Assembly (NCBI GenBank): GCA_019348555.1
Contig: JAHWJH010000006.1
Span: 1-42,120, forward strand
DNA: 42,120 bases
Direction: 5' to 3'
From: Actinomycetota bacterium
GTDB lineage: Bacteria > Actinomycetota > Acidimicrobiia > Acidimicrobiales > CADCSY01
Shown here: positions 4,101 through 31,162 of the stretch, in pieces
Numbering within the stretch: the first letter of the stretch is position 1
Layout: every line of letters starts with the position of its first letter
Notes under the pieces: model-generated
The model's database searches: none
What the model was told of the DNA's origin: nothing
The model's input: the letters and a program-made list of their open reading frames with translations, nothing else
Translations under genes and position numbers: made by a program

Positions 4101-7082
4101 TCAGCCGTCGCCCGGGGCGAAGCCCTGGCGCATGGTGTTCTCGCTCAGCGCCACGGGGTCGAGGAACTGGAGGAGGTAGTCGGGGCCGCCGGCCTTGGAG
4201 CCCACGCCGGACAACCCCACCCCACCGAAGGGCTGGCGCCCCACCACCGCGCCGGTGATCGGGCGGTTGACGTAGACGTTGCCGGCCCGCAGCTCCCGCA
4301 CCGCTCGATCGATGTGCGAGGGGGATCTCGACACCACACCAGCGGTGAGGCCGTAGTCGGTGTGGTTGGCCACCTCCAGCGCCTGGTCGAAGGTCTCCAC
4401 CCGCATGACCGCGAGCACCGGGCCGAAGATCTCCTCGGTGGCGAGTCGGCTGGTGGGGGCGACGTCGGTCACGATCGTCGGGCCGACGAAGTACCCGCCA
4501 GCGGGCACGTCGCCACCGGCGAGGACCACCGTGCCCTCGGCGCCGGCCATGTCGACGTAGGAGCGCACCCGCTCGTGGGCGTCGGCGTCGATGAGCGGGC
4601 CCATGTCGACGCCCATCTCGCTGGGATGGCCGACGCGCAACCCGGCGGCCCGGCCCACGAGCCGCTCGATCAGCTCCTCGGCCCCACCGGCGCCCCGGTC
4701 GACGACGATCAGGCGGGAGCACGCCGAGCACTTCTGGCCGGAGTACCCGAATGCCGAGGTGATCACGATGGGGACGGCCTGGTCGAGATCGGCGTCGGCG
4801 TCGACGATCACCGCGTTCTTGCCGCCCATCTCGGCCACCACCCGCTTCACGTGACGCTGCCCGGGGCGATGCACGGCCGCTGACGCCACGATCTCGAGGC
4901 CGACGGGCAGCGAGCCGGTGAAGGCCACGAACGACACCGCCGGGTGCTCGACCAGATGGGCGCCGACGTCGCCCATGCCGGGCAGGAAGGCGAGCACCCC
5001 CTCGGGGAGCCCCGAGGCGAGCAGGGCCTCGACCAGCTTGGCGGCGACCGCCGGGGTCTGCTCCGCCGGCTTGAACACCACGGCGTTGCCGGTGACCAGA
5101 GCCGCGACCACCATGCCGGTGGGAATGGCGAGAGGGAAGTTCCACGGCGAGATGACCACGCCCACGCCCCTGCCCCGGTAGTGCATGGCGTTGGCCTCGC
5201 CCGGCGGCGAATCGACCGGGGCGCCGGCGTCGAGGCGCAGCATCTGGCGGCCGTAGTACTCGCAGAAGTCGATCGCCTCGCACACGTCGGCATCGGCGTC
5301 GGGCCAGGGCTTGCCGGCTTCGAACACCTCCAGGGCGGCCAGCTCGCTCCGCCGCTCGCGCATCCACGCCGCCGCCCGGAACACCACGCCGGCGCGCTCC
5401 GCAGCCGAGGTGGCCCGCCACCGTGGCCACGCTGCGAGCGCCGAGTCGATCGCTTCGTCGGCCTCGGTGGGCCCACAGCAGGCGGACACGGCCAGGACCG
5501 TCGAAGGCGCAGCGGGATCGACGGAGGCGATGGTGGCCTCGGTCGTGACCGAGCGCCCGCCGATGACGGCGGGTACGACCTCCGCAGAGCCGCGCTGGCG
5601 AAGCCGTTCGACGGAGCGGGCGAAGTGCAGGCGCGCGGGCGGGTCGCGCCACTCGGCGACCGGTTCGGGGCGGAACCCGCCCGGGGACGACGAGTCGGTC
5701 GCTGAGCTGCGCGGCGGAGGAACCGGATCGGCGCCGAGATCGACCTCAGGTGCTTGGAGCAGCTCGTCGAGGGCCCGGCCCTCGACGAAGCGGCGCCGCA
5801 CGAAGCTCTCGTTGGCGGTGTTCTCGAGCAGCCGGCGCACCAGGTAGGCCATCCCTGGCACCAGGTCGCCGACCGGCGCGTACACCCGCAGACGCAGGCC
5901 GAGGCGCCGGACAGCGGCGTGGACGGGCTCGGCCATGCCGTAGAGGAGCTGGATCTCGTAGCCGTCGTCGGGGATGCCGAGCGAGCGGGCGCACTGCACG
6001 GCGTAGGAGATCGAGCGCAGGTTGTGGGTGCCGAAGGCGGCCCGCACCTCGCCGTGGTGGCGGTGCAGCAGCCGGGTGCAGCGCTCGTAGTTGGCGTCGG
6101 TCTCCTCCTTGCGGGTGTAGACCGGCACCGGCCACCCGGCGGCCCGAGCGGTGATGGTCTCGGTGTCCCAGTAGGCGCCCTTGACCAGGCGAACGGTGAT
6201 CGGACGCGAGCGCTCGGCCGAGAAGGCGATCAGCTCGGTGAGGTCGCGATAGGAGTCGCGGGTGTAGGCCTGCACCACCACGCCGGCCTCGGCGCCGGCC
6301 AGGCCGGGTTCGTCGAGCAGCTCCCGGAACAGCCGGAGCGTCAGGTCCTTCACGTCGTAGTGCTCGGCGTCGAGGTGGACGAAGGCGCCGGAGGCGAGCG
6401 CTCGGTACAGGATCGGCCGGAGCCGGCGCTTGGCTTGATCGAGCCCTTCCCCCTCGGTCAACGGTGCCAACCGGGACGCGAGGGCCGTGGGCTTGACGCT
6501 GACGTTGACCCTCGCCAGCGGCCCCAGGTCGTCGTGCTCGAGGCGCTCGACGGCCGGCCAGGCGGAGCTGCGCTCGCCGAGCACGGCGAGGAGCTCCTGC
6601 ACCCTGGCGGCGTAGCGGTCGGCCTCCTCCTCGGTGAGCGTCTTCTCGCCCAGCAGGTCGACCGTGGAGGCGCTGCCGGCCCGCCACAGCCGCTCCAGCC
6701 GCTCGACGGCGGCGTGCGGATCGGCCCCCACGATGAACTGCTGGGCCACCCGTTTGATGTTCCGGCGAGCCAGGGAGGCCGCCGCCGCCCGCCCGAGCGG
6801 CAGGTGCTCGGCGGCGCCGAGGCCGAGGTCGAGGAGCCGGGGGGCGTCGGTGCCCTCGAAGTACTCCACCAGGTGGGCGAGGACGTCGGCGTCGTCGACC
6901 GTGGCCGGGAACACGTCGACGAACCGGAAGAGCTGGGTCTTGAACGAGGGGTGCGACATCGCCCACTCGAGCATCTGCTCGGTCCACCACGAGGAGTCGA
7001 CCACCTTGGAGGCAGCACCCTCGCCGGCCTCCGCCAGGTGGCGCGCCAGCGCCGTCACCTCGGCGTCGAGCGACGCGACCAT
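4101..7082 (-). CDS. putA: bifunctional proline dehydrogenase / L-glutamate gamma-semialdehyde dehydrogenase
   Basis: This 993-residue fusion oxidises proline to P5C with FAD, passing electrons to quinone, and then converts the semialdehyde to glutamate with NAD+. The N-terminal half (about 100-430) is the PRODH barrel, with the conserved VRLVKGAYWDTE and YEIQLLYGMAEP segments. The second half (about 510-985) is an aldehyde dehydrogenase with VISPWNFPLAI, catalytic Glu in VAEMGGKNAVIV and catalytic Cys785 in YSGQKCSACSR. It lacks the ribbon-helix-helix DNA-binding domain of E. coli PutA, so it should not be its own repressor. ATG 7082 is preceded by TACGAT. It is divergent from the arginine/ornithine genes with a 32-base gap. 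Confidence 0.94.
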   Translation of the reverse strand: MVASLDAEVTALARHLAEAGEGAASKVVDSSWWTEQMLEWAMSHPSFKTQLFRFVDVFPATVDDADVLAHLVEYFEGTDAPRLLDLGLGAAEHLPLGRAAAASLARRNIKRVAQQFIVGADPHAAVERLERLWRAGSASTVDLLGEKTLTEEEADRYAARVQELLAVLGERSSAWPAVERLEHDDLGPLARVNVSVKPTALASRLAPLTEGEGLDQAKRRLRPILYRALASGAFVHLDAEHYDVKDLTLRLFRELLDEPGLAGAEAGVVVQAYTRDSYRDLTELIAFSAERSRPITVRLVKGAYWDTETITARAAGWPVPVYTRKEETDANYERCTRLLHRHHGEVRAAFGTHNLRSISYAVQCARSLGIPDDGYEIQLLYGMAEPVHAAVRRLGLRLRVYAPVGDLVPGMAYLVRRLLENTANESFVRRRFVEGRALDELLQAPEVDLGADPVPPPRSSATDSSSPGGFRPEPVAEWRDPPARLHFARSVERLRQRGSAEVVPAVIGGRSVTTEATIASVDPAAPSTVLAVSACCGPTEADEAIDSALAAWPRWRATSAAERAGVVFRAAAWMRERRSELAALEVFEAGKPWPDADADVCEAIDFCEYYGRQMLRLDAGAPVDSPPGEANAMHYRGRGVGVVISPWNFPLAIPTGMVVAALVTGNAVVFKPAEQTPAVAAKLVEALLASGLPEGVLAFLPGMGDVGAHLVEHPAVSFVAFTGSLPVGLEIVASAAVHRPGQRHVKRVVAEMGGKNAVIVDADADLDQAVPIVITSAFGYSGQKCSACSRLIVVDRGAGGAEELIERLVGRAAGLRVGHPSEMGVDMGPLIDADAHERVRSYVDMAGAEGTVVLAGGDVPAGGYFVGPTIVTDVAPTSRLATEEIFGPVLAVMRVETFDQALEVANHTDYGLTAGVVSRSPSHIDRAVRELRAGNVYVNRPITGAVVGRQPFGGVGLSGVGSKAGGPDYLLQFLDPVALSENTMRQGFAPGDG

Positions 7083-7090
7083 CGGCTTCG

Positions 7091-7107
7091 ATCGTACGCC
7101 GTAGGGT
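7091..7107. promoter_or_regulatory. back-to-back -10 boxes between putA and the LOR/SDH gene
   Basis: The 32-base divergent gap holds TACGAT on the minus strand (7096-7091, eight bases before the putA ATG) and TAGGGT on the plus strand (7102-7107, seven bases before GTG 7115). Neither gene has a Shine-Dalgarno sequence. The two promoters are so close that one bound regulator or polymerase would affect both, which suggests co-regulation. Confidence 0.55.
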
Positions 7108-7114
7108 CGCTTCG

Positions 7115-8338
7115 GTGACCGCCAGCGAAACCGTCGAGGTGCGGGGCCACATCGTCGACTCCCTCATCCTGGCCAAGATCCTCGACCTGATCGTCGACGC
7201 CGGTGCCGACTACCGGATGATCGATCTCGACCTCGGCACGTCGCATGTCGACCCCTCGACCGCCCGGATCTCGATCACCGCCGCCGACGCGTCCGACCTG
7301 GCGGCTCTGCTCGCGGAGCTGCACCCTCACGGCGCCCACCCCGTCGAGACCGGGGACCTCGTGGTGAAACCCGCCGAAGCCGGCGGCGTCTTGCCCGACG
7401 GGTTCTACGCCACGACCAACCTCCCCACCGAGGTGCGCGTCGACGGCCATTGGATCGAGGTCGACCGACCGGAGATGGACTGCGCCCTGGTGGTGGACGA
7501 CGACGGCCCGGCGGCCCGGGCCCGGGCCGTCCCCATGCACCGGGTGGCGGCCGGCGACCAGGTGGCGGTCGGTCTCGCCGGGATCCGGGTCCGGCCCCTC
7601 GAGAAGCCCCGCGGCGCCAGTCCCTTCGAGTTCATGACCTCGGAGGTGTCGGCCGAGAAGCCGAAGGCGCTGTTGGTGGCCCGGGTCGCCGAGCGGCTCC
7701 GGGCCGCCAAGGCCGGCGGTGGTCGGCTCCTCGCCGTGCCCGGGCCAGCCGTGGTCCACACCGGGGCCGGACCCCACCTGGCCGCCCTGGTGCGCGAGGG
7801 CTGGGTCGACGTCGTGTTCTCGGGCAACGGGTTCGCCGTGCACGACATCGAGTCGTGCCTCCTCGGGACCTCGCTCGGCATCTCGGTGGGAGAAGGCACC
7901 GCAGCCGAAGGCAGCCACGCCAACCACCTGCGGGTCATCAACCAGGTGCGGCGCTGGGGTTCCGTCCGCCGAGGCGTCGAGGACGGCGCCTTGTGTGGGG
8001 GGGTTCTGTACGAGTGCGTCCGCCGAGGCGTGCCCGTGGTGCTGGGCGGGTCCGTGCGCGACGACGGACCGCTGCCCGACGTTCTCACCGACGTGGTGGC
8101 GGCCCAGGACGCCATGCGCCGGCACCTCGACGGGGTGGCCGTGGCGCTGGTGCTGGCGTCGACCCTCCACGCCGTGGCCGTCGGCAACCTCCTGCCCGCC
8201 TCGGTGGAGGTCTACTGCGTCGACATCAACCAGGCGGTGGTCACCAAGCTCACCGACCGGGGGAGCCAGCAGGCGCTCGGCATCGTGACCGACGTGGGGC
8301 TGTTCCTGAGCGAGCTGTCTCGGCAGCTGATCGGGTGA
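7115..8338 (+). CDS. LOR/SDH (TIGR00300) family protein, probable ornithine cyclodeaminase
   Basis: This 407-residue protein belongs to the family labelled 'LOR/SDH bifunctional enzyme' (TIGR00300), seen in archaea and as the C-terminal half of cyanobacterial AgrE/ArgZ. In those systems the domain converts ornithine to proline and ammonia with bound NAD. Visible hallmarks are VEVRGHIVDSLILAKILD at the N-terminus, the HWIEVDRPEMDCALVV block, VFSGNGFAVHDIE and GEGTAAEGSHANHL. It is unrelated to classical mu-crystallin-type OCD. The gene overlaps the downstream amidinohydrolase by GTGA, and putA is divergent. This supports an arginine-ornithine-proline-glutamate route. The family label from sequence is firm; the activity is inferred. 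Confidence 0.85.
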   Translation: MTASETVEVRGHIVDSLILAKILDLIVDAGADYRMIDLDLGTSHVDPSTARISITAADASDLAALLAELHPHGAHPVETGDLVVKPAEAGGVLPDGFYATTNLPTEVRVDGHWIEVDRPEMDCALVVDDDGPAARARAVPMHRVAAGDQVAVGLAGIRVRPLEKPRGASPFEFMTSEVSAEKPKALLVARVAERLRAAKAGGGRLLAVPGPAVVHTGAGPHLAALVREGWVDVVFSGNGFAVHDIESCLLGTSLGISVGEGTAAEGSHANHLRVINQVRRWGSVRRGVEDGALCGGVLYECVRRGVPVVLGGSVRDDGPLPDVLTDVVAAQDAMRRHLDGVAVALVLASTLHAVAVGNLLPASVEVYCVDINQAVVTKLTDRGSQQALGIVTDVGLFLSELSRQLIG

Positions 8339-9177
8339 GCGGCCTGGCCTGGGGCCGGCGCTTCCTCGTGTGCCCCCCTGAGCACTTCAGCGTGCTGTAC
8401 GAGATCAACCCGTGGATGCACAAGGAGGTGCCCGTCGACGCCGACCGCGCCCGGGCTCAGTGGGAGGGCCTGGTCGACGTGCTGCGCCGAGCCGGCGCCG
8501 AGGTCGACGTCATCTCCCCGGTGCCCGGACTCCCCGACATGGTCTTCACCGCCAACGGCGGCGTGGTCAGCGGAAGGCGCCTCATGGAGAGCCGCTTCCG
8601 CCACCCCGAGCGCACCGGCGAGGCTGCGTTGTTCTCGGCATGGTTCCGCGCCCGCGGCTACGAGATCGCCGAGGTCCCTCCCGGCCTGCACCTCGAGGGA
8701 GCGGGCGACGCCCTGCCGTTCGGGAACCGGATGCTCGGGGGGTACCGGTCGAGGTCCGACATCGGCGCCCACGCCGCCTTGTCGGCTGCCTTCGGGGTCG
8801 AGGTCCTGCCGATCGAGCTGATCGACCCCCGCTTCTACCACCTCGACCTGACCTTCTGCCCGCTCGACGACCGCCGAGCGATGATCGTGCCCGGGGCCTG
8901 GGATCGCTACGGGCGCGAGGTGGTGGCCGGGCTGGTCCCCGAGCCGGTGGTCCTCGACGACGACGAGGCGGCGGCGTTCTGCGCCAACTCGGTGCTCGTG
9001 AACACCACCTTGATCATGCCGTCGTGCACCAAGCGACTCGGACGCCGACTCGAGTCCCTCGGGCTCGATGTCGTGGTCGTCGACGTCGGCGAGTTCCTCC
9101 GGGCCGGCGGCGGGGTCCGGTGCCTGACCTTGGCGCTCGACGTGACGTTGGAGCGACCGTCGCCCGTACGGAGGTAG
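8335..9177 (+). CDS. amidinotransferase/GME-superfamily hydrolase, probable arginine dihydrolase
   Basis: This encodes 280 residues from GTG 8335, overlapping the LOR/SDH stop as GTGA. The guanidine-modifying fold is clear: PDMVFTANGG near residue 68-76, LEGAGDAL near 120, the catalytic His169 in FYHLDLTFC, and the nucleophilic Cys263 in GGGVRCLTL. Length, motif order and Cys position resemble the N-terminal domain of cyanobacterial AgrE/ArgZ, which removes the guanidine group of arginine to give ornithine, CO2 and ammonia. Dimethylarginine dimethylaminohydrolase is the main alternative. The coupled LOR/SDH partner, which uses ornithine in AgrE, favours arginine dihydrolase. Confidence 0.82.
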   Translation: MSGLAWGRRFLVCPPEHFSVLYEINPWMHKEVPVDADRARAQWEGLVDVLRRAGAEVDVISPVPGLPDMVFTANGGVVSGRRLMESRFRHPERTGEAALFSAWFRARGYEIAEVPPGLHLEGAGDALPFGNRMLGGYRSRSDIGAHAALSAAFGVEVLPIELIDPRFYHLDLTFCPLDDRRAMIVPGAWDRYGREVVAGLVPEPVVLDDDEAAAFCANSVLVNTTLIMPSCTKRLGRRLESLGLDVVVVDVGEFLRAGGGVRCLTLALDVTLERPSPVRR

Positions 9178-25123: not shown

Positions 25124-27346
25124 TCAGGACTCCCAGGTCTCCAAGCGGCGCACGGCCACCGCGCAGTGCTTGTAGGAGGGCTGGCGCGACTGGGGGTCGA
25201 CGCTGGGAAAGGTCAGGCGGTTGACGTCGGGGTGGTGCATGGCCACGAACACCTGGCCTCGGCGCACGGTCGGCGTCACCAGCACCCGGGCCCGCATCGT
25301 GCCGCGGGCCGACGCCACCTCCACCCACTCGTCGGGCGCCAACCCCAGCGCCTCCGCCTCGCTCGGCGCCATCTCCACGTGCGGGTCGGCGGGGTACAGC
25401 GTGCGCAGCAGGGCCGACTTGGAGGTGCGGGTCTGGGTGTGCCACTGGCTCGAGGTGCCCCGGCCGGTGAGGAGCACCAAGGGGTAGCGCCGGCTCGTGG
25501 CCTCGCGCACCGGCCGCGGCTCGCCGAAGCAGAACCGGGCCCGCCCGTCGAGGTGGAAGAACCTCCCGTCGCCGAAGAGCCGTCGCTCGGCGCCGGCGGT
25601 GGTGGTCGTCCCCGCCGGGAGGGGCCACTGCACGCCGCCGAGCTCGTCGATCATCCGGTAGCCGTCCACCCCGCTCACGTCGCAGGGCCGCCCGGCCGAG
25701 AGCCGCCCGAGCAGGCCGAACACCGCCTCGGGCGACGACCACGCCGAGAACAGGTCGCCGCAGCCCCAGGCCTCGGCCACCAGCTTGAAGATGGCGAAGT
25801 CGTCGAGCGCCTGGCCGGGCGCCCGGGCCACCCGCTTGACCAGCCCGATGCGCCGCTCGGAGTTGATGAACGTGCCCTCCTTCTCGCCCCATCCCGCCGC
25901 CGGGAGCACGAGGTCGGCCCGTTGGGCGGTCTCGGTGGTGCCGTACATGTCCTGGACCACCAGGAAGTCGAGGCGACCCAGCAGGTCGTGGAGCTCGGAG
26001 TGGTTGATCCAGGAGTGGGCGGCGTTGGTGGCCACCACCCACAGGCCGCGGATGTCGCCCGTGGCGATGCCCTCCACGATCTGGTCGTAGGCCAGGCTCG
26101 GCTGGTCGGGGATGCGGCCGACGTCGATGCCGAGGGCGTCGGCCACCTCCTGGCGGTCGGCCGCCTCGGTGAAGCTCCGGCCACCGAAGAGGTTGGTGGT
26201 GTTGGAGAACAGGCGCGAGCCCATGGCGTTGCACTGGCCGGTGATCGAGTTGGCGCCGGTTCCCGGTCGGCCGATGTTGCCGGTCAGCAGGGCGACGTCG
26301 ATGATCGCCTGGGCCACCAGCACGCCCTCGTGGCTCTGGTTGACCCCCATGGTCCACCACAGCGACACCCGCTTCCCGCCGGCGATGCTGGCCGCCAGCC
26401 GCTCCAGCTCCTCGGCGGCGACGCCGGTGGCGTCGGCCACCACGTCGACGGTGTAGGGCGCCACATGGGCGGCGAACTCGTCGAAGCCGGAGGTGTGGGC
26501 CTCGACAAAGGCGTGGTCGACCGCTCCCCGCTCGATGAGCAGGCGGGCCAGCCCGTAGAGCAGCACCAGGTCGGACTTCGGGGCCAGCGCCAGGTGCTGG
26601 GTCGCCGCTCGGGCGGTCTCGGTCGCTCGGGGGTCGACGACGACCACCTCCGGGCGGTGGGGGTTCCGGCACACCCGCTCCCAGAGGATGGGGTGCGCCA
26701 CGCACGGGTTGGAGCCGAAGAAGACGATGACATCCGACTCCTCCAGGTCGGCATAGGTGTAGGGCGGGGCGTCGAAGCCGAACGCCTGCTTGTAGGCGAC
26801 GACGGCGGTGGCCATGCACTGACGGGTGTTGCCGTCGCCGTGGAGCATCCCCATGCCGAATTTGGCCACCGCCCCGAGCAGGGCCATCTCCTCGGTGACG
26901 ATCTGACCGGTGCTGAGGAACGCCACCGACGCCGGTCCGTGCTGCGCCTGCACGGCCTTGAACCGGCTGACGAACGCCTCCAGGGCGGTGTCCCAGCCCA
27001 CGGGCGCCAGCCGCCCCCGCTCGTCGCGCAACAGCGGCTGGGTTGCCCGGTCGTCGGCCGCCAGCGGCGCCAGCGCCTCCCATCCCTTCGGGCACGCCCG
27101 CCCCTGGTTGACCGGGTAGTGCACGGTCGGTGACAGGTTGACCGCCTCGCCGTCCCGCAGGTGCACGTCGAGCGAGCACCCCACCGAGCAGTAGCCGCAC
27201 ACCATGGACGTGACCGCGTCGGGGGCCAGGCGGGAGGGAACCTGCCCGAGGCCGAATCCCCCTGGCAGGCGGGCGACGTCGTCGCCGAGGCGGCCGTGGC
27301 GAGCCACCAGCAGGTCGGTCAGCGATCGCCGGCGCCCCGCCTCCAT
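25124..27346 (-). CDS. NasA-type assimilatory nitrate reductase catalytic subunit (molybdopterin)
   Basis: This encodes 740 residues. The N-terminal [4Fe-4S] site has Cys50, 53, 57 and 85 ([10 protein letters not shown]...RACPKG). Cys177 in [16 protein letters not shown] fits the molybdenum-ligand position of the NapA/NasA group. [20 protein letters not shown] and the C-terminal [18 protein letters not shown] block are typical of nitrate reductases. The Arg-rich start is not followed by a hydrophobic stretch, so Tat export is unlikely and the enzyme should face the cytoplasm. ATG 27346 overlaps the upstream Fe-S/membrane gene (TGATG). The 1481-residue track ORF is an artefact of open frame. 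A formate dehydrogenase-like role is the alternative, but the nitrite reductase nearby favours nitrate. Confidence 0.85.
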
Positions 27347-28998
27347 CACCGCCCGTCCGGCATGCGCGCCGGAGCGGCAGCGGTGAAGAACTGCCAGCGT
27401 TCGAGCAGCTCGCCACCGACCAGGGCGACAAAGCCGGCGCCGGCGAGCACCAGAGCCACCGTTCCGGAGGCCCCGGCCACGCCCAGCGCCGAGGTGAGGA
27501 CGGCTGCGGCCACACCGGCGGCGAAGCGTCGGCGGGTCCCCGCCCGCAGGGGGCCGACGAGCAGCAGGGCGCTCCGGCGCAACTCGGCCGGCGCGCCGGC
27601 TCGCCGGTGGCGCAGCAGGAAGAACGCCTCGGCCGCCAGCTTGACGGTGATGACGCCGGCCACCACCAGGGCGAGCGGGCGCCCGAGCACCGCCTGGGTG
27701 CGGGCGCCGTCCGCACCGCCGATCACCGCTGCCGAGGCCAGCGTGGCGACGAGCATGGCGGCGCTGCCCAGCGCCAGCGAGCTCAACGCGAACTTGGTGA
27801 CGGTGCGAGGAAGCGCCCACCATGCCCGTCGGGTCACGGCGTAGACCAGCGCCGAGCAGCCCACGCCGACCACGCCCACCAGCACCGCCGACGTGGCGAG
27901 GACCGGCTCCACCGGGCGTCCGGCATCGACCAGCAGCGCCCACCCATGGCCGGCGGTGAGCACGGCGAAGGCGACGAAGGCCGCGATCTCCCGGCTCAAC
28001 CACGAGCACCGCAGCCCGAGCAGGGCCCGGAAGGCATAGAGCGGCCGCCCCAGGTGGCACACGCTGGCGGCCAGCGCCACGATCCCCGCCGCCAGGGCCA
28101 CCGCCGCCGTGGCCGGGCGCAGTGCGTCGACGAGGACCGGTGGGGCCAGGGCCCGGCCGGCGAGGCCCACCAGGGCCACGCCCACCGCCAGCTGGGTGAG
28201 CACCAGCATCACCGCGAGCGGCGGGTGTGACTGGCCGGGGGCGATGGAGCGAGTGCTCGAAGCCGACGGCGCCGCCTCGGGGAGCGCCCGGGCACTGCGG
28301 TAGAGCGTCGTCGGCACGGTGATGGTCGATGCCGGGGCGCCCGGCACCAGAGGTCCGGCCGCCGCCGCCGACACCGCCGACGCCACGTCGACCAGGCTCA
28401 CCCGGATGGCGGCGTTGGGGCACGACTGGACGCACGCCGGCGCCTCCCCCGCCGCCAGCCGCCCGGCGCACAGGTCGCACTTGCGCACGATGCCGAGGTC
28501 GGCGTTGTACCGGGGCACCTCGTAGGGGCACGTCAGCACGCAGTACCGACAGCCGATGCACTGGTCGTCGAGGTGGACGACGATGCCGGTGACCGGATCC
28601 TTCTCGTAGGCGTTGACCGGGCAGCCCTTCATGCATGCGGGATCGACGCAGTGGTGGCAACCGGTGGTGACCGACTGCTGGCGGGGAGCGGCCTCCGATC
28701 CCGCGTGCATCAGGCCCACCGACCGCCACGACTCGCCGGAGCCCAGCCCGTTGAGGTTGTGGCAGGCCGTGACGCACGCCTTGCAGCCGGTGCAGGCGTC
28801 GAGGTCGACCTCGAAGCCGTACTGCTGACCGGGCGACGGACGCTCGACGGGCACGACGTCGCGGTAGTAGCGGGCCTGGTCGGGCAGCGTGGCGGCGTGG
28901 CGTTGCGCGAACCGCTCGACCACGGTCATGTCGGCCTGGCCGGCGAGATAGCGGTCGATCGGGGTCAGGAGATCGACGTCGAGGGTGTCGACGGTCAC
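27346..28998 (-). CDS. fused DmsB-type Fe-S subunit and DmsC/NrfD-like membrane anchor
   Basis: This encodes 550 residues. Residues 65-225 carry four ferredoxin-type Cys clusters ([38 protein letters not shown], and CDLCAGR with ACVQSCP), as in DmsB. Residues 260-540 are about eight hydrophobic helices like DmsC, the quinol-binding anchor of DMSO reductase. The fusion would take electrons from the quinone pool and pass them through the four clusters to the molybdenum enzyme encoded next. There is no Tat signal, so the Fe-S part should be cytoplasmic, opposite to classical DmsABC. The first 60 residues are extra and of unknown role. It is translationally coupled to the nitrate reductase gene. 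Confidence 0.86.
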
Positions 28999-29197
28999 GA
29001 GAGCGCCCGGTCGTCGCCGGGTGGCCAGGTGCCGCCCGGGCGAGCTTCCACGCCCGGAACCTACGGTCGGGTGGTTTCACCGCCGTTGTTGCCGGGTCAC
29101 CGCTGCGTGAACGGGATCTCTCAGCTCCGACGACGCCCGTGCGCGACACGTCGCCGACCGGAAACACGGGGGGAAGATGCCGGCAACACGCCCTTCG

Positions 29198-29203
29198 TAG
29201 GGT
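29198..29203 (+). promoter_or_regulatory. TANNNT -10 box of the nitrite reductase gene
   Basis: TAGGGT lies six bases before GTG 29210. The divergent gap (28999-29209, about 210 bases) is the longest promoter region of this cluster. No clear GlnR or other nitrogen-regulator site could be fixed by eye. Confidence 0.5.
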
Positions 29204-29209
29204 CGCCGG

Positions 29210-31162
29210 GTGGCCGCGCCCGACATCCCCACCGTCAAGCGGGCCGGGCTCCCCATCGACCTGGCACGCCTCGAAGCCGAAGGCGACAGCTGGCTGACGC
29301 CCGAGGACCGCTACGCCCTCAAGACGTGGGGCGTGTGCAACCAGGAGCAGGACCACGTGTTCATGGTGCGGGTGCGCAACCCCGGCGGCGCCCTGCCCAC
29401 CATCCAGGCCCGAGGCCTCGCCCGGGTGGCGCGGGCCTTCGGTCCCGACTGGCTGCACCTCACGACCCGCCAGAACGTCGAGCTGCACTGGGTCGAGGCG
29501 AGGCGCATCCCGGCGCTGCTCGACGCCGTCACCGAGATCGGGTTGACCACCCGCTCGGGATGCGGCCACACCATGCGCAACGTGATGTCGTCCGAGGACG
29601 CCGGGTTGAGCCTCGACGAGCCGTTCGACTGCCTGGCCGACGCCAGGGCGGTGAGCGATGCCATCCTGGCCCGATCGGCCCAGCTCAACTGCGAGCTGCC
29701 GAGCCGCATCAACATCGCCTTCGGCGGCTCACCCCGGTGCCGGGCCGACGCCTTGCTCAACGACGCCGGCTTCGTCTCGGTGGTGTGCGACGGCGAGGCC
29801 GGCTACGAGCTGTGGGGCGGCGGCAGCCTGGGCAAGGCCCCGTTCCTGGCGGTGAAGCTGGCCGACTTCGTCCCCCGCACCGAAGCCCTGGCCGCCGCCG
29901 AGGCCCTGGTGGAGGTGTTCGTCGAGCACGGCAACTTCGACAAGCCCACCAAGGGCCGCATGAAGTTCGTCGTCGAGCGCCTGGGCGAGGCCGCCTTCCG
30001 CGCCGCATGGGACCAGGCCTTCGCCGCCGCCCGCGCTCGTCCCCACCCTCGGCCGGCTCCGGTCGAGATCCTTCCCGAGGCCGACCGGGTCGCCATGCTC
30101 TCGCACAACCCGCCGGGAGGGTGGTCGACGGGCGTTCGTCCCCAGCGCACGCCGGGGCTGTGCACCCTCACCGTCGACATCCCCCTGGGTGACACCAACG
30201 GTTCGGAGCTCGAGCTGCTGTGCGACCTGGCCGACCGCCACGCCGACGGCGCCCTCAACCTCAGCCGCGACCAGAACGTCGTGCTGCGCAACGTGGCCGT
30301 CACCGACGTGACCCTGGTCCGCGACGCGCTGCGGACCCGCGGGTTGTTCCTCGCCGGCGAAGCCCACACCGCGTCGGTGCGGGCGTGCACGGGCTCGGCG
30401 GTGTGCGCTCTCGGCATCACCACCGCTCCCGACGCCGGCAAGGCCCTGCTCACCAGCGCCGGGCTCGGGCGCAACTCCGCCCTGCGGGTGCACGTGTCGG
30501 GATGCCCCAACTCCTGCGCGCAGCACCAGGCCGGTGACATCGGCCTGGCCGGCTCCAAGGTGCGCATCGCCGGCGCGAGCCGCGACGGCTACCACGTCTT
30601 CCTCGGTGCCGACCTCGGCGTCCGGCGGGTCGGCGAGGTGGTGGGCAGGGTGGCGGCCGAGGACGTGCCGGCCGCCGTGGAGGCGGTGGTCGGCGCCTGG
30701 GAGTCGATGCGCCACGACGGTGAAGGGCTCGGCGCCACCGTGGCCCGCATCGGCCACGACGCCTTCGCCCGTCACCTCGAGGCCGTCATGGACGAGCGAT
30801 GGGCCACCGGACCCGAGCCCGGCAGCGAGCTGGCGCCGCCGACGTCCGCACCGGTCGAGACCGCGGCCAGCGTCCGGGAGCTGGCGCCGGGGTCGGTCAC
30901 CTCCGTCAGCATCGGCACCACCCGCCTCGCGGTCGCCAACGTCGACGGCACCTACTGCGCCGTCGCCGACGAGTGTCCCCACGCCGGGGCCTCGCTCGGG
31001 GCGGGGACGCTCGACGGCACGTCACTGCGCTGCCCCCGCCACGGCGGCACCTTCGACGTGCGCACCGGAGAGGTGCTCGCCGGTCCCCCGGAGGAACCGG
31101 CGGCATGCCACCCGATCGAGGTGGTCGACGGCGTGGTCCGCCTACCCACCCCGGTCCGCTAG
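29210..31162 (+). CDS. siroheme nitrite reductase with C-terminal Rieske domain
   Basis: This encodes 650 residues. Two ferrodoxin-like/siroheme repeats form residues 1-530; the coupled [4Fe-4S]-siroheme centre is bound by Cys393 and Cys399 (ACTGSAVC) and Cys432 and Cys436 (SGCPNSC). A Rieske domain at about 550-645 has intact ligands C589-x-H591 and C608-x2-H611. The core reduces nitrite to ammonia with six electrons; sulfite reductase is the main alternative. In NirBD systems a NirD partner has a Rieske fold without ligands, whereas here the cluster ligands are kept and fused, so the domain could be the electron entry. It is divergent from the nitrate reductase/electron donor pair, which supports nitrite. 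Confidence 0.85.

Follow-up and report, generated by a model that had tools for sequence, protein, structure and literature searches.

Organization of the locus

The window, by which we mean the whole stretch of 42,120 nucleotides that was analysed, carries a putA gene on the reverse strand (4101..7082, 993 residues) and, divergent from it on the forward strand, two overlapping genes. The putA product combines PRODH and P5CDH domains on a single chain and belongs to the PutA family by its Pfam matches (PutA_N 95, Pro_dh 300.6 and Aldedh 470.7 bits). The first forward gene (7115..8338, GTG at 7115 to TGA at 8338, 407 residues) encodes a TIGR00300 predicted ornithine cyclodeaminase (OCD), and the second (8335..9177, GTG at 8335 to TAG at 9177, 280 residues) a predicted arginine dihydrolase of the guanidine-modifying enzymes. 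The two share four bases, GTGA, and the unit is probably translationally coupled, with a divergent gap of 32 bases (7083..7114, from ORF coordinates) between putA and OCD. The genes, the overlap, the gap and the domains were given in a preliminary description of this DNA, and ORF coordinates and Pfam agree with it. The back-to-back promoter that it also placed here is not supported: a promoter scan found no sigma-70-like site in 6950-7250, and two non-overlapping promoters do not fit into 32 bases outside the coding sequences.

The OCD scores 485.8 bits against TIGR00300, above the cut-off of 410.8, and displays the full Pfam architecture of this family, with an N-terminal LOR/SDH (Saccharop_dh_N) domain (PF04455, 101.5 bits; residues 5-102, 7127..7420) followed by a catalytic region (residues 104-401, 7424..8317) composed of PF21571 (ArgZ-like_C_1st) and the Rossmann PF21570 (ArgZ-like_C_2nd). 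The catalytic domain is the one found in archaeal MMP1218, to which the OCD is 46% identical and whose structure, 3c2q, comprises the catalytic part only; the LOR domain is of the family represented by archaeal MJ1480, where 3mgj covers that domain. Identity to the C-terminal part of AgrE is 43%, the AlphaFold model matches 6juy (TM 0.85) as well as 3c2q, and residues H215, H268, H271, H352, D244 and E246 are invariant or nearly so in 89 sequences that include AgrE and MMP1218.

The hydrolase and its relatives

The hydrolase is 42.6% identical to the dihydrolase domain of AgrE and 40.3% identical to ArgZ, and its best PDB matches, 6lrf and 6juy, are AgrE/ArgZ structures; for the OCD, too, AgrE and ArgZ are the nearest relatives with a solved structure. 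Cys263, His169 and the FTANGG motif (residues 71-76) lie where the preliminary description had them, counted from the GTG at 8335; the forward-strand codons of N74, E121, H169 and C263 are found at 8554-8556, 8695-8697, 8839-8841 and 9121-9123, respectively. In the alignment, Y22, N25, D68, N74, R93, E121, D125, R140, H169, D171, N218 and C263 are identical to the AgrE/ArgZ residues, and the active-site columns differ only in R/K beside the Cys and in G75 for A beside N74. The hydrolase thus has the catalytic Cys and His and the dihydrolase-specific Asn (N71 in AgrE) of an ArgZ/AgrE-type enzyme, and it is best read, from its sequence, as a predicted arginine dihydrolase converting Arg to Orn, CO2 and 2 NH3.

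A firm position within the dimethylargininases (DDAH) had been named beforehand as an outcome that would speak against such a reading. Alignment and tree gave another result: the hydrolase family and the DDAH rows stand 2.1 changes per site apart, along a branch that has 100/100 support. Within the family, the tree provisionally places the hydrolase with ArgZ/AgrE and not with the M. tuberculosis (Mtb) type (97/95), although an AU test also allows it to join the Mtb-type clade (p 0.508). Among 141 hydrolase-family rows, 66 have an OCD neighbour and 29 an ornithine aminotransferase (OAT) neighbour. A single origin of the OAT linkage is rejected (p-AU 5e-68), and pairing with OAT by related hydrolases arose independently at least two times. 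Since the partners of this one family are two enzymes that both consume ornithine but are not related to each other, the product of the hydrolase is probably ornithine, and the name 'dimethylargininase' given to the Mtb-type family NF045659 is therefore probably wrong. If so, this would correct an annotation in use at NCBI.

NF045659-type hydrolases share the enzyme family, the active site and the arginine-catabolic context of the window hydrolase, to which they are about 37% identical, but their partner is a downstream OAT: rows of this type mostly adjoin rocD, and all of the dihydrolase residues are present in them. Rv2323c of M. tuberculosis is probably a member. This protein, annotated as DDAH, is required for the conversion of arginine to proline in an organism that lacks arginase, and is the closest actinobacterial precedent for the window system (PMC4569260), one that the preliminary description passed over. 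Our reading, if true, would explain how M. tuberculosis, lacking arginase, can still turn arginine into ornithine and proline.

Two other identities should be considered for the hydrolase, both of which were set aside on HMM scores, active-site columns and trees. A dimethylargininase would convert methylated arginines to citrulline and dimethylamine, and this finds some backing in the database scores, as NF045659 is marginally the best NCBIfam match (257.4 bits) and DDAH_eukar the sole Pfam match. However, the former score falls below its cut-off of 300 and the latter, at 35 bits, is far below the AgrE/ArgZ matches in the PDB. The families of true DDAH (Pseudomonas/Streptomyces/eukaryote type), NF045658 and NF045660, give only 41 and 70 bits (cut-offs 450 and 340), and one true-DDAH row is about 26% identical, with the DDAH rows carrying Asp in place of Asn74 and lacking N25. 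Moreover, the neighbours of the hydrolase family consume ornithine rather than citrulline, and both the residues and rocD linkage of the NF045659 rows and the requirement for Rv2323c argue against this activity, which we thus consider very unlikely. The arginine dihydrolase family NF052232 is itself not reached (242.9 bits, cut-off 450); nonetheless, a split homologue in Nitrospira also remains below this value, at 290 bits, so that the cut-off appears to be fitted to the cyanobacterial form. A one-step arginine deiminase yielding citrulline would have the superfamily and the Cys/His catalytic pair in common with our protein. Asn74, as in the dihydrolases AgrE and ArgZ, and partner enzymes that use ornithine both contradict this, the window genes covered by the Pfam scan include no carbamoyltransferase or carbamate kinase, and such an activity is hardly credible.

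Distribution of the split pair and of the putA linkage

The pair carries the same two enzymes as the arginine dihydrolase/ornithine cyclodeaminases AgrE (Alr4995, Anabaena) and ArgZ (Sll1336, Synechocystis), with about 40-43% identity in each part. While AgrE/ArgZ is one chain with the hydrolase first, in the window there are two genes, OCD first, with a 4-base overlap and a divergent putA 32 bases away. The preliminary description was aware of no account of this arrangement in actinobacteria and took it for a fused chain that had been split, and both points need revision. OCD-hydrolase adjacency recurs at 71 loci, and so is not due to chance; OCD precedes the hydrolase in 71/71 same-strand cases, 67 of them with a spacing of 150 bases or less. 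With the split pair present in at least seven phyla, the two-gene form is a widespread bacterial arrangement, neither unique to this genome nor peculiar to actinobacteria, and in the tree it is the cyanobacterial fusion, of reverse order, that looks derived. If true, the 'special' arginine enzyme of cyanobacteria would be one fused case of a two-gene unit that is common in bacteria and found in nitrifiers, planctomycetes and actinobacteria.

The linkage to putA, also pointed out earlier, is real but occasional. Unrelated lineages have putA near the pair, in divergent orientation in Omnitrophota (L118), convergent in Nitrospirota (L091) and on the same strand in G022 (L043) and G053 (L046), which exceeds the approximately 0.3 cases expected by chance in 85 loci (a rough estimate). 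Most relatives carrying the pair have no putA nearby, however, and the linkage is a minority trait.

Genomic context and cofactor

The route was originally said to dispense with arginase, urease and OAT. In the window genome (G000), which is 85.75% complete, we found neither an arginase-type gene nor an OAT above the cut-off; urease, however, is encoded, adjoining a GdmH-like guanidine hydrolase. The only ureohydrolase, considered as a candidate arginase, best matches guanidine-hydrolase-type 'agmatinase 2' structures (9fek, 7esr/7oi1) and scores far below the arginase cut-off. As proB is present, ordinary proline synthesis exists, and the notion of the OCD as a substitute for proB was rejected, proB being found in nearly all relatives.

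NCBIfam now names TIGR00300 nickel-pincer-nucleotide (NPN)-dependent, a point absent from the preliminary description. The window genome has the complete larB/larC/larE set, with LarB and LarC (L047) and LarE (G000:C215), and also contains a LarA-like gene. LarC occurs in 40/42 genomes with TIGR00300 and in 134/255 without it (p 1.5e-8, a statistic that ignores shared ancestry). Among genomes lacking a clear LarA the corresponding values are 18/20 and 51/166, and in the order-level sample alone the co-occurrence is marginal (19/21 versus 25/38, p 0.06). This co-occurrence supports the new NCBI label, and the cofactor of the OCD is probably NPN. If true, many genomes whose nickel-pincer cofactor genes are orphans would gain a client enzyme for them.

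Proposed pathway

The earlier proposal of an AgrE/ArgZ-like pair that is split and reversed relative to the fused protein, with a predicted flow from arginine through ornithine to proline and then PutA, is retained. We assign a probability of about 0.78 to the reading that hydrolase, OCD and PutA together form an arginase-free route from arginine to glutamate. Cys263 would attack the guanidinium carbon of arginine, and as Asn74 replaces the Asp of DDAH, both nitrogens would be removed to give ornithine, CO2 and 2 NH3. The TIGR00300 enzyme would then cyclise ornithine to proline by internal redox with loss of NH3, using probably NPN or possibly NAD+; the case for both steps is strong. Oxidation of proline to P5C and on to glutamate by PutA is nearly certain from its family. 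The OCD-hydrolase unit would represent the widespread form, AgrE/ArgZ its fused and reordered derivative, and putA a third, sporadically linked partner. In cyanobacteria, where the route likewise continues via PutA, the AgrE-then-PutA pathway is established (PMC8262935).

Two alternatives concern the OCD. That it uses NAD+ only, with the nickel-pincer label being wrong, is suggested by PDB 6lrg, in which AgrE is bound to ornithine and NAD+ and not to NPN, and by the fold, which beyond AgrE/ArgZ/MMP1218 resembles NAD-dependent deoxyhypusine synthase and not LarA. Against this stand the NCBIfam name, the larC co-occurrence and the genomes, many cyanobacteria among them, with larBCE and without larA, which imply a non-LarA NPN protein of a different fold (PMC11796402), and we consider an NAD+-only enzyme unlikely, if still a serious candidate. 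The OCD might also serve mainly for proline supply, in biosynthesis or as an osmolyte, with the adjacency of putA being incidental. Most pair-bearing relatives indeed lack a nearby putA, and methanogens, M. maripaludis among them, have OCD homologues that serve proline synthesis. With proB present, however, no extra proline source is needed, and the linkage to putA recurs across several unrelated lineages, more often than chance predicts; this role is rather improbable.

A broader reading than the arginine-to-glutamate route can be offered tentatively, at somewhat less than even odds. The whole hydrolase clade, including the many members that presumably bear the name 'dimethylargininase' in mycobacteria and further actinobacteria (the NF045659 or Rv2323c type), may consist of arginine dihydrolases feeding a swappable ornithine-consuming partner, either nickel-pincer OCD or OAT, with the small LOR domain acting as a subunit that can be transferred and that serves the dihydrolase in docking or regulation. 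The latter role is suggested as LOR also accompanies the hydrolase where no OCD is present; other genomes carry the domain by itself or in fusion with the hydrolase. A more distant member of the guanidine-modifying enzyme superfamily, the 2-nitroimidazole nitrohydrolase NnhA of Mycobacterium sp. JS330, is a marginal match (E 0.81) and acts on a different substrate.

Gene arrangement in the window

The gene calls bear out the three genes and positions of the preliminary description: putA (4101-7082, minus strand), encoding PutA_N, proline dehydrogenase and aldehyde dehydrogenase domains; a TIGR00300 ornithine cyclodeaminase (OCD) gene (7115-8338, plus strand; 485.8 bits against a cut-off of 410.8); and a 280-aa guanidine-modifying hydrolase (8335-9177, plus strand), which has GTGA in common with the preceding OCD gene. 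Cys263, His169 and FTANGG of the hydrolase were likewise found where expected, as was the 32-base gap between putA and the OCD gene. The 'back-to-back promoter' was inference only, as a promoter scan gave no promoter-like site in or near this gap. The other neighbours (an RF3-like factor, DNA polymerase IV, YceI, an iron-dependent-repressor-type regulator and ABC transporter parts) have no evident link to arginine. Positions 27346-31162 hold one gene for an Fe-S/DmsC-like subunit and one for a nitrite/sulfite reductase that carries a fused Rieske domain; these suggest nitrogen or sulfur redox functions.

Identity of the hydrolase

Among solved structures, the hydrolase is closest to AgrE and ArgZ, the cyanobacterial fusions of arginine dihydrolase and OCD (E ~1e-60, versus ~1e-7 for true dimethylargininase, DDAH). 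At 42.6%, its identity is higher with the dihydrolase domain of AgrE than with an Mtb-type 'dimethylargininase' (37%) or a DDAH (26%). Its Y22, N25, D68, N74, R93, E121, D125, R140, H169, D171, N218 and C263 are the AgrE/ArgZ residues, and the compared positions differ only in R for K before the Cys and G for A after N74. DDAH outgroup rows carry Asp in place of N74, whose AgrE counterpart, Asn71, is essential for dihydrolase activity. An 86-protein tree sets the whole family apart from the DDAH outgroup with 100/100 support; alignment and tree thus keep the window hydrolase out of DDAH, the assignment named earlier as the refutation of an AgrE/ArgZ-like enzyme. The hydrolase falls within a 32-row actinobacterial clade (99/99), and the tree joins this clade to ArgZ/AgrE and to rows from Nitrospirota and Planctomycetota (97/95); as joining the Mtb-type clade instead gives an AU p of 0.508, this apparent position is not secure. 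The hydrolase also scores below the NCBIfam cut-offs of both candidate families.

The strongest argument that the enzyme is a dihydrolase, and not a DDAH or an arginine deiminase, comes from a census of neighbours within the fetched flanks of 141 hydrolase rows. OCD lies beside the hydrolase in 66 rows, ornithine aminotransferase (OAT) in 29, and two cyanobacterial rows carry a fused OCD; 38 have neither OCD nor OAT within these flanks, including many Gemmataceae and other planctomycetes (L076, L078, L096, L098, L113, L120 and similar loci). A single clade of OAT-linked rows is rejected (AU p 5e-68), and the actinobacterial clade with OCD neighbours contains one group of OAT-linked rows, from Solirubrobacteraceae, Thermoleophilaceae and their relatives (100/96). 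As the common substrate of these two unrelated partners is ornithine, they point to ornithine as the probable product of the hydrolase. Within the window's order, an Mtb-type hydrolase adjoins OAT in place of OCD in G014 (L131:660-2670). TIGR00300 genes also occur without a nearby hydrolase in G010 (L027), G049 (L039) and G043 (L045); both ureohydrolase and urease are carried by the latter two genomes, where the ornithine may therefore have another source.

Distribution of the split pair and linkage to putA

Both genes lie on one strand in 71 of 102 loci, with OCD first and the hydrolase second in all 71 and a spacing within 150 bases in 67. Carriers include Acidimicrobiia, Nitrospirota (e.g. 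Ca. Nitrospira defluvii), Planctomycetota, Chloroflexota, Verrucomicrobiota, Armatimonadota and Omnitrophota; of 59 genomes from the window's order, 21 have a TIGR00300 gene above the cut-off, and in 17 of these the hydrolase is nearby. The pair is thus neither rare, as had been supposed, nor specific to actinobacteria, and while it does comprise two separate AgrE/ArgZ-like genes in reverse order, the two-gene form is the common one, and the splitting of a chain is not supported. Since the cyanobacterial fusion has the opposite domain order and is placed among Melainabacteria rows in the hydrolase tree, it is most likely a derived state, which would have needed rearrangement beyond loss of a stop codon. 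Beside the OCD of G019, the hydrolase gene (L037:9317-10161) is broken over two reading frames and is either a pseudogene or an assembly error.

A full PutA gene is divergent in Omnitrophota (L118), as in the window, lies on the same strand as the pair in G022 (L043) and G053 (L046), and in Nitrospirota (L091) is convergent at a distance of ~1.5 kb; G057 (L033) has a PutA-like gene (35% identical) upstream. The proposed putA link therefore recurs in unrelated lineages above the ~0.3 cases expected by chance in 85 loci (rough Poisson estimate), yet in a minority of loci only. The route of AgrE followed by PutA is established in cyanobacteria (PMC8262935), and the present system is a split, reordered, sometimes putA-linked variant of that known enzyme system. 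The interpretation put forward earlier was incomplete, but its mechanism (arginine to ornithine, proline and glutamate) appears largely right, all of its reactions being predicted from the observed gene identities, residues, order, distribution and co-occurrence.

ALTERNATIVES in the same genome

The window's genome is a 2.76-Mb draft that is 85.75% complete, and absences are limited by the missing contigs. A profile search of this draft gave no OAT above cut-off. Its single ureohydrolase, on contig C122, was rejected as an arginase: at 86 bits it falls short of the 228 bits required for arginase, and its closest structures are the 'agmatinase 2' entries 9fek and 7esr/7oi1, of which 7esr/7oi1 is the Synechocystis guanidine hydrolase GdmH. 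A route without arginase or OAT is thus upheld within this draft; 'without urease' is true of the route and false for the genome, as urease adjoins this ureohydrolase, together with an ABC transporter. The row of ABC transporter, GdmH-like ureohydrolase and urease (L137:230-7780) is probably a guanidine-use cluster.

Cofactor of the OCD

NCBIfam (2026) names TIGR00300 as nickel-pincer-nucleotide (NPN)-dependent, and a 2024 study predicted a non-LarA NPN protein of different fold in larBCE-positive, larA-negative genomes, including many cyanobacteria (PMC11796402). Across 297 genomes of the phylum, the NPN synthesis gene larC occurs in 40/42 TIGR00300 carriers (partial and variant matches counted) and in 134/255 others (p 1.5e-8), and, among genomes without a clear LarA, in 18/20 carriers and 51/166 others (p 3.5e-7); as kinship among genomes is uncorrected in both comparisons, this co-occurrence is support for an NPN-dependent OCD and not proof. 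The control archaea M. jannaschii and H. volcanii have both TIGR00300 and LarC, and the window's genome carries LarB, LarC and LarE, as well as a LarA-like gene. Counting against the NPN reading, PDB 6lrg is AgrE complexed with ornithine and NAD+. The fold that AlphaFold predicts for the window OCD (pLDDT 88) is matched first by ArgZ and MMP1218 and next by NAD-dependent deoxyhypusine synthase; the 50 structure matches listed include no LarA.

By-products of the analysis

Two by-products concern the Mtb-type family (NF045659), which is probably misnamed as dimethylargininase, and the LOR domain, the N-terminal domain of OCD, which is mobile. From the family name and the hydrolase-rocD gene order, we infer that NF045659 is the family of Rv2323c. 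The argument from ornithine-consuming partners extends to this gene: Rv2323c is required for proline formation from arginine in M. tuberculosis, which lacks an arginase homologue (PMC4569260). A later review names Rv2323c DDAH with that paper as its source (PMC11008464); the accessible text of the source reports the annotation and no assay. As for the LOR domain, a small standalone LOR/SDH gene without the OCD catalytic part directly precedes the hydrolase both in G051 (L050:6540-6849, hydrolase 6854-7657), where a TIGR00300 search found no other OCD, and in Gastranaerophilales (L112:6663-6968). In Vampirovibrionales (L108:6617-7792), LOR/SDH, again without the catalytic part, is fused ahead of the hydrolase in one 392-aa frame.
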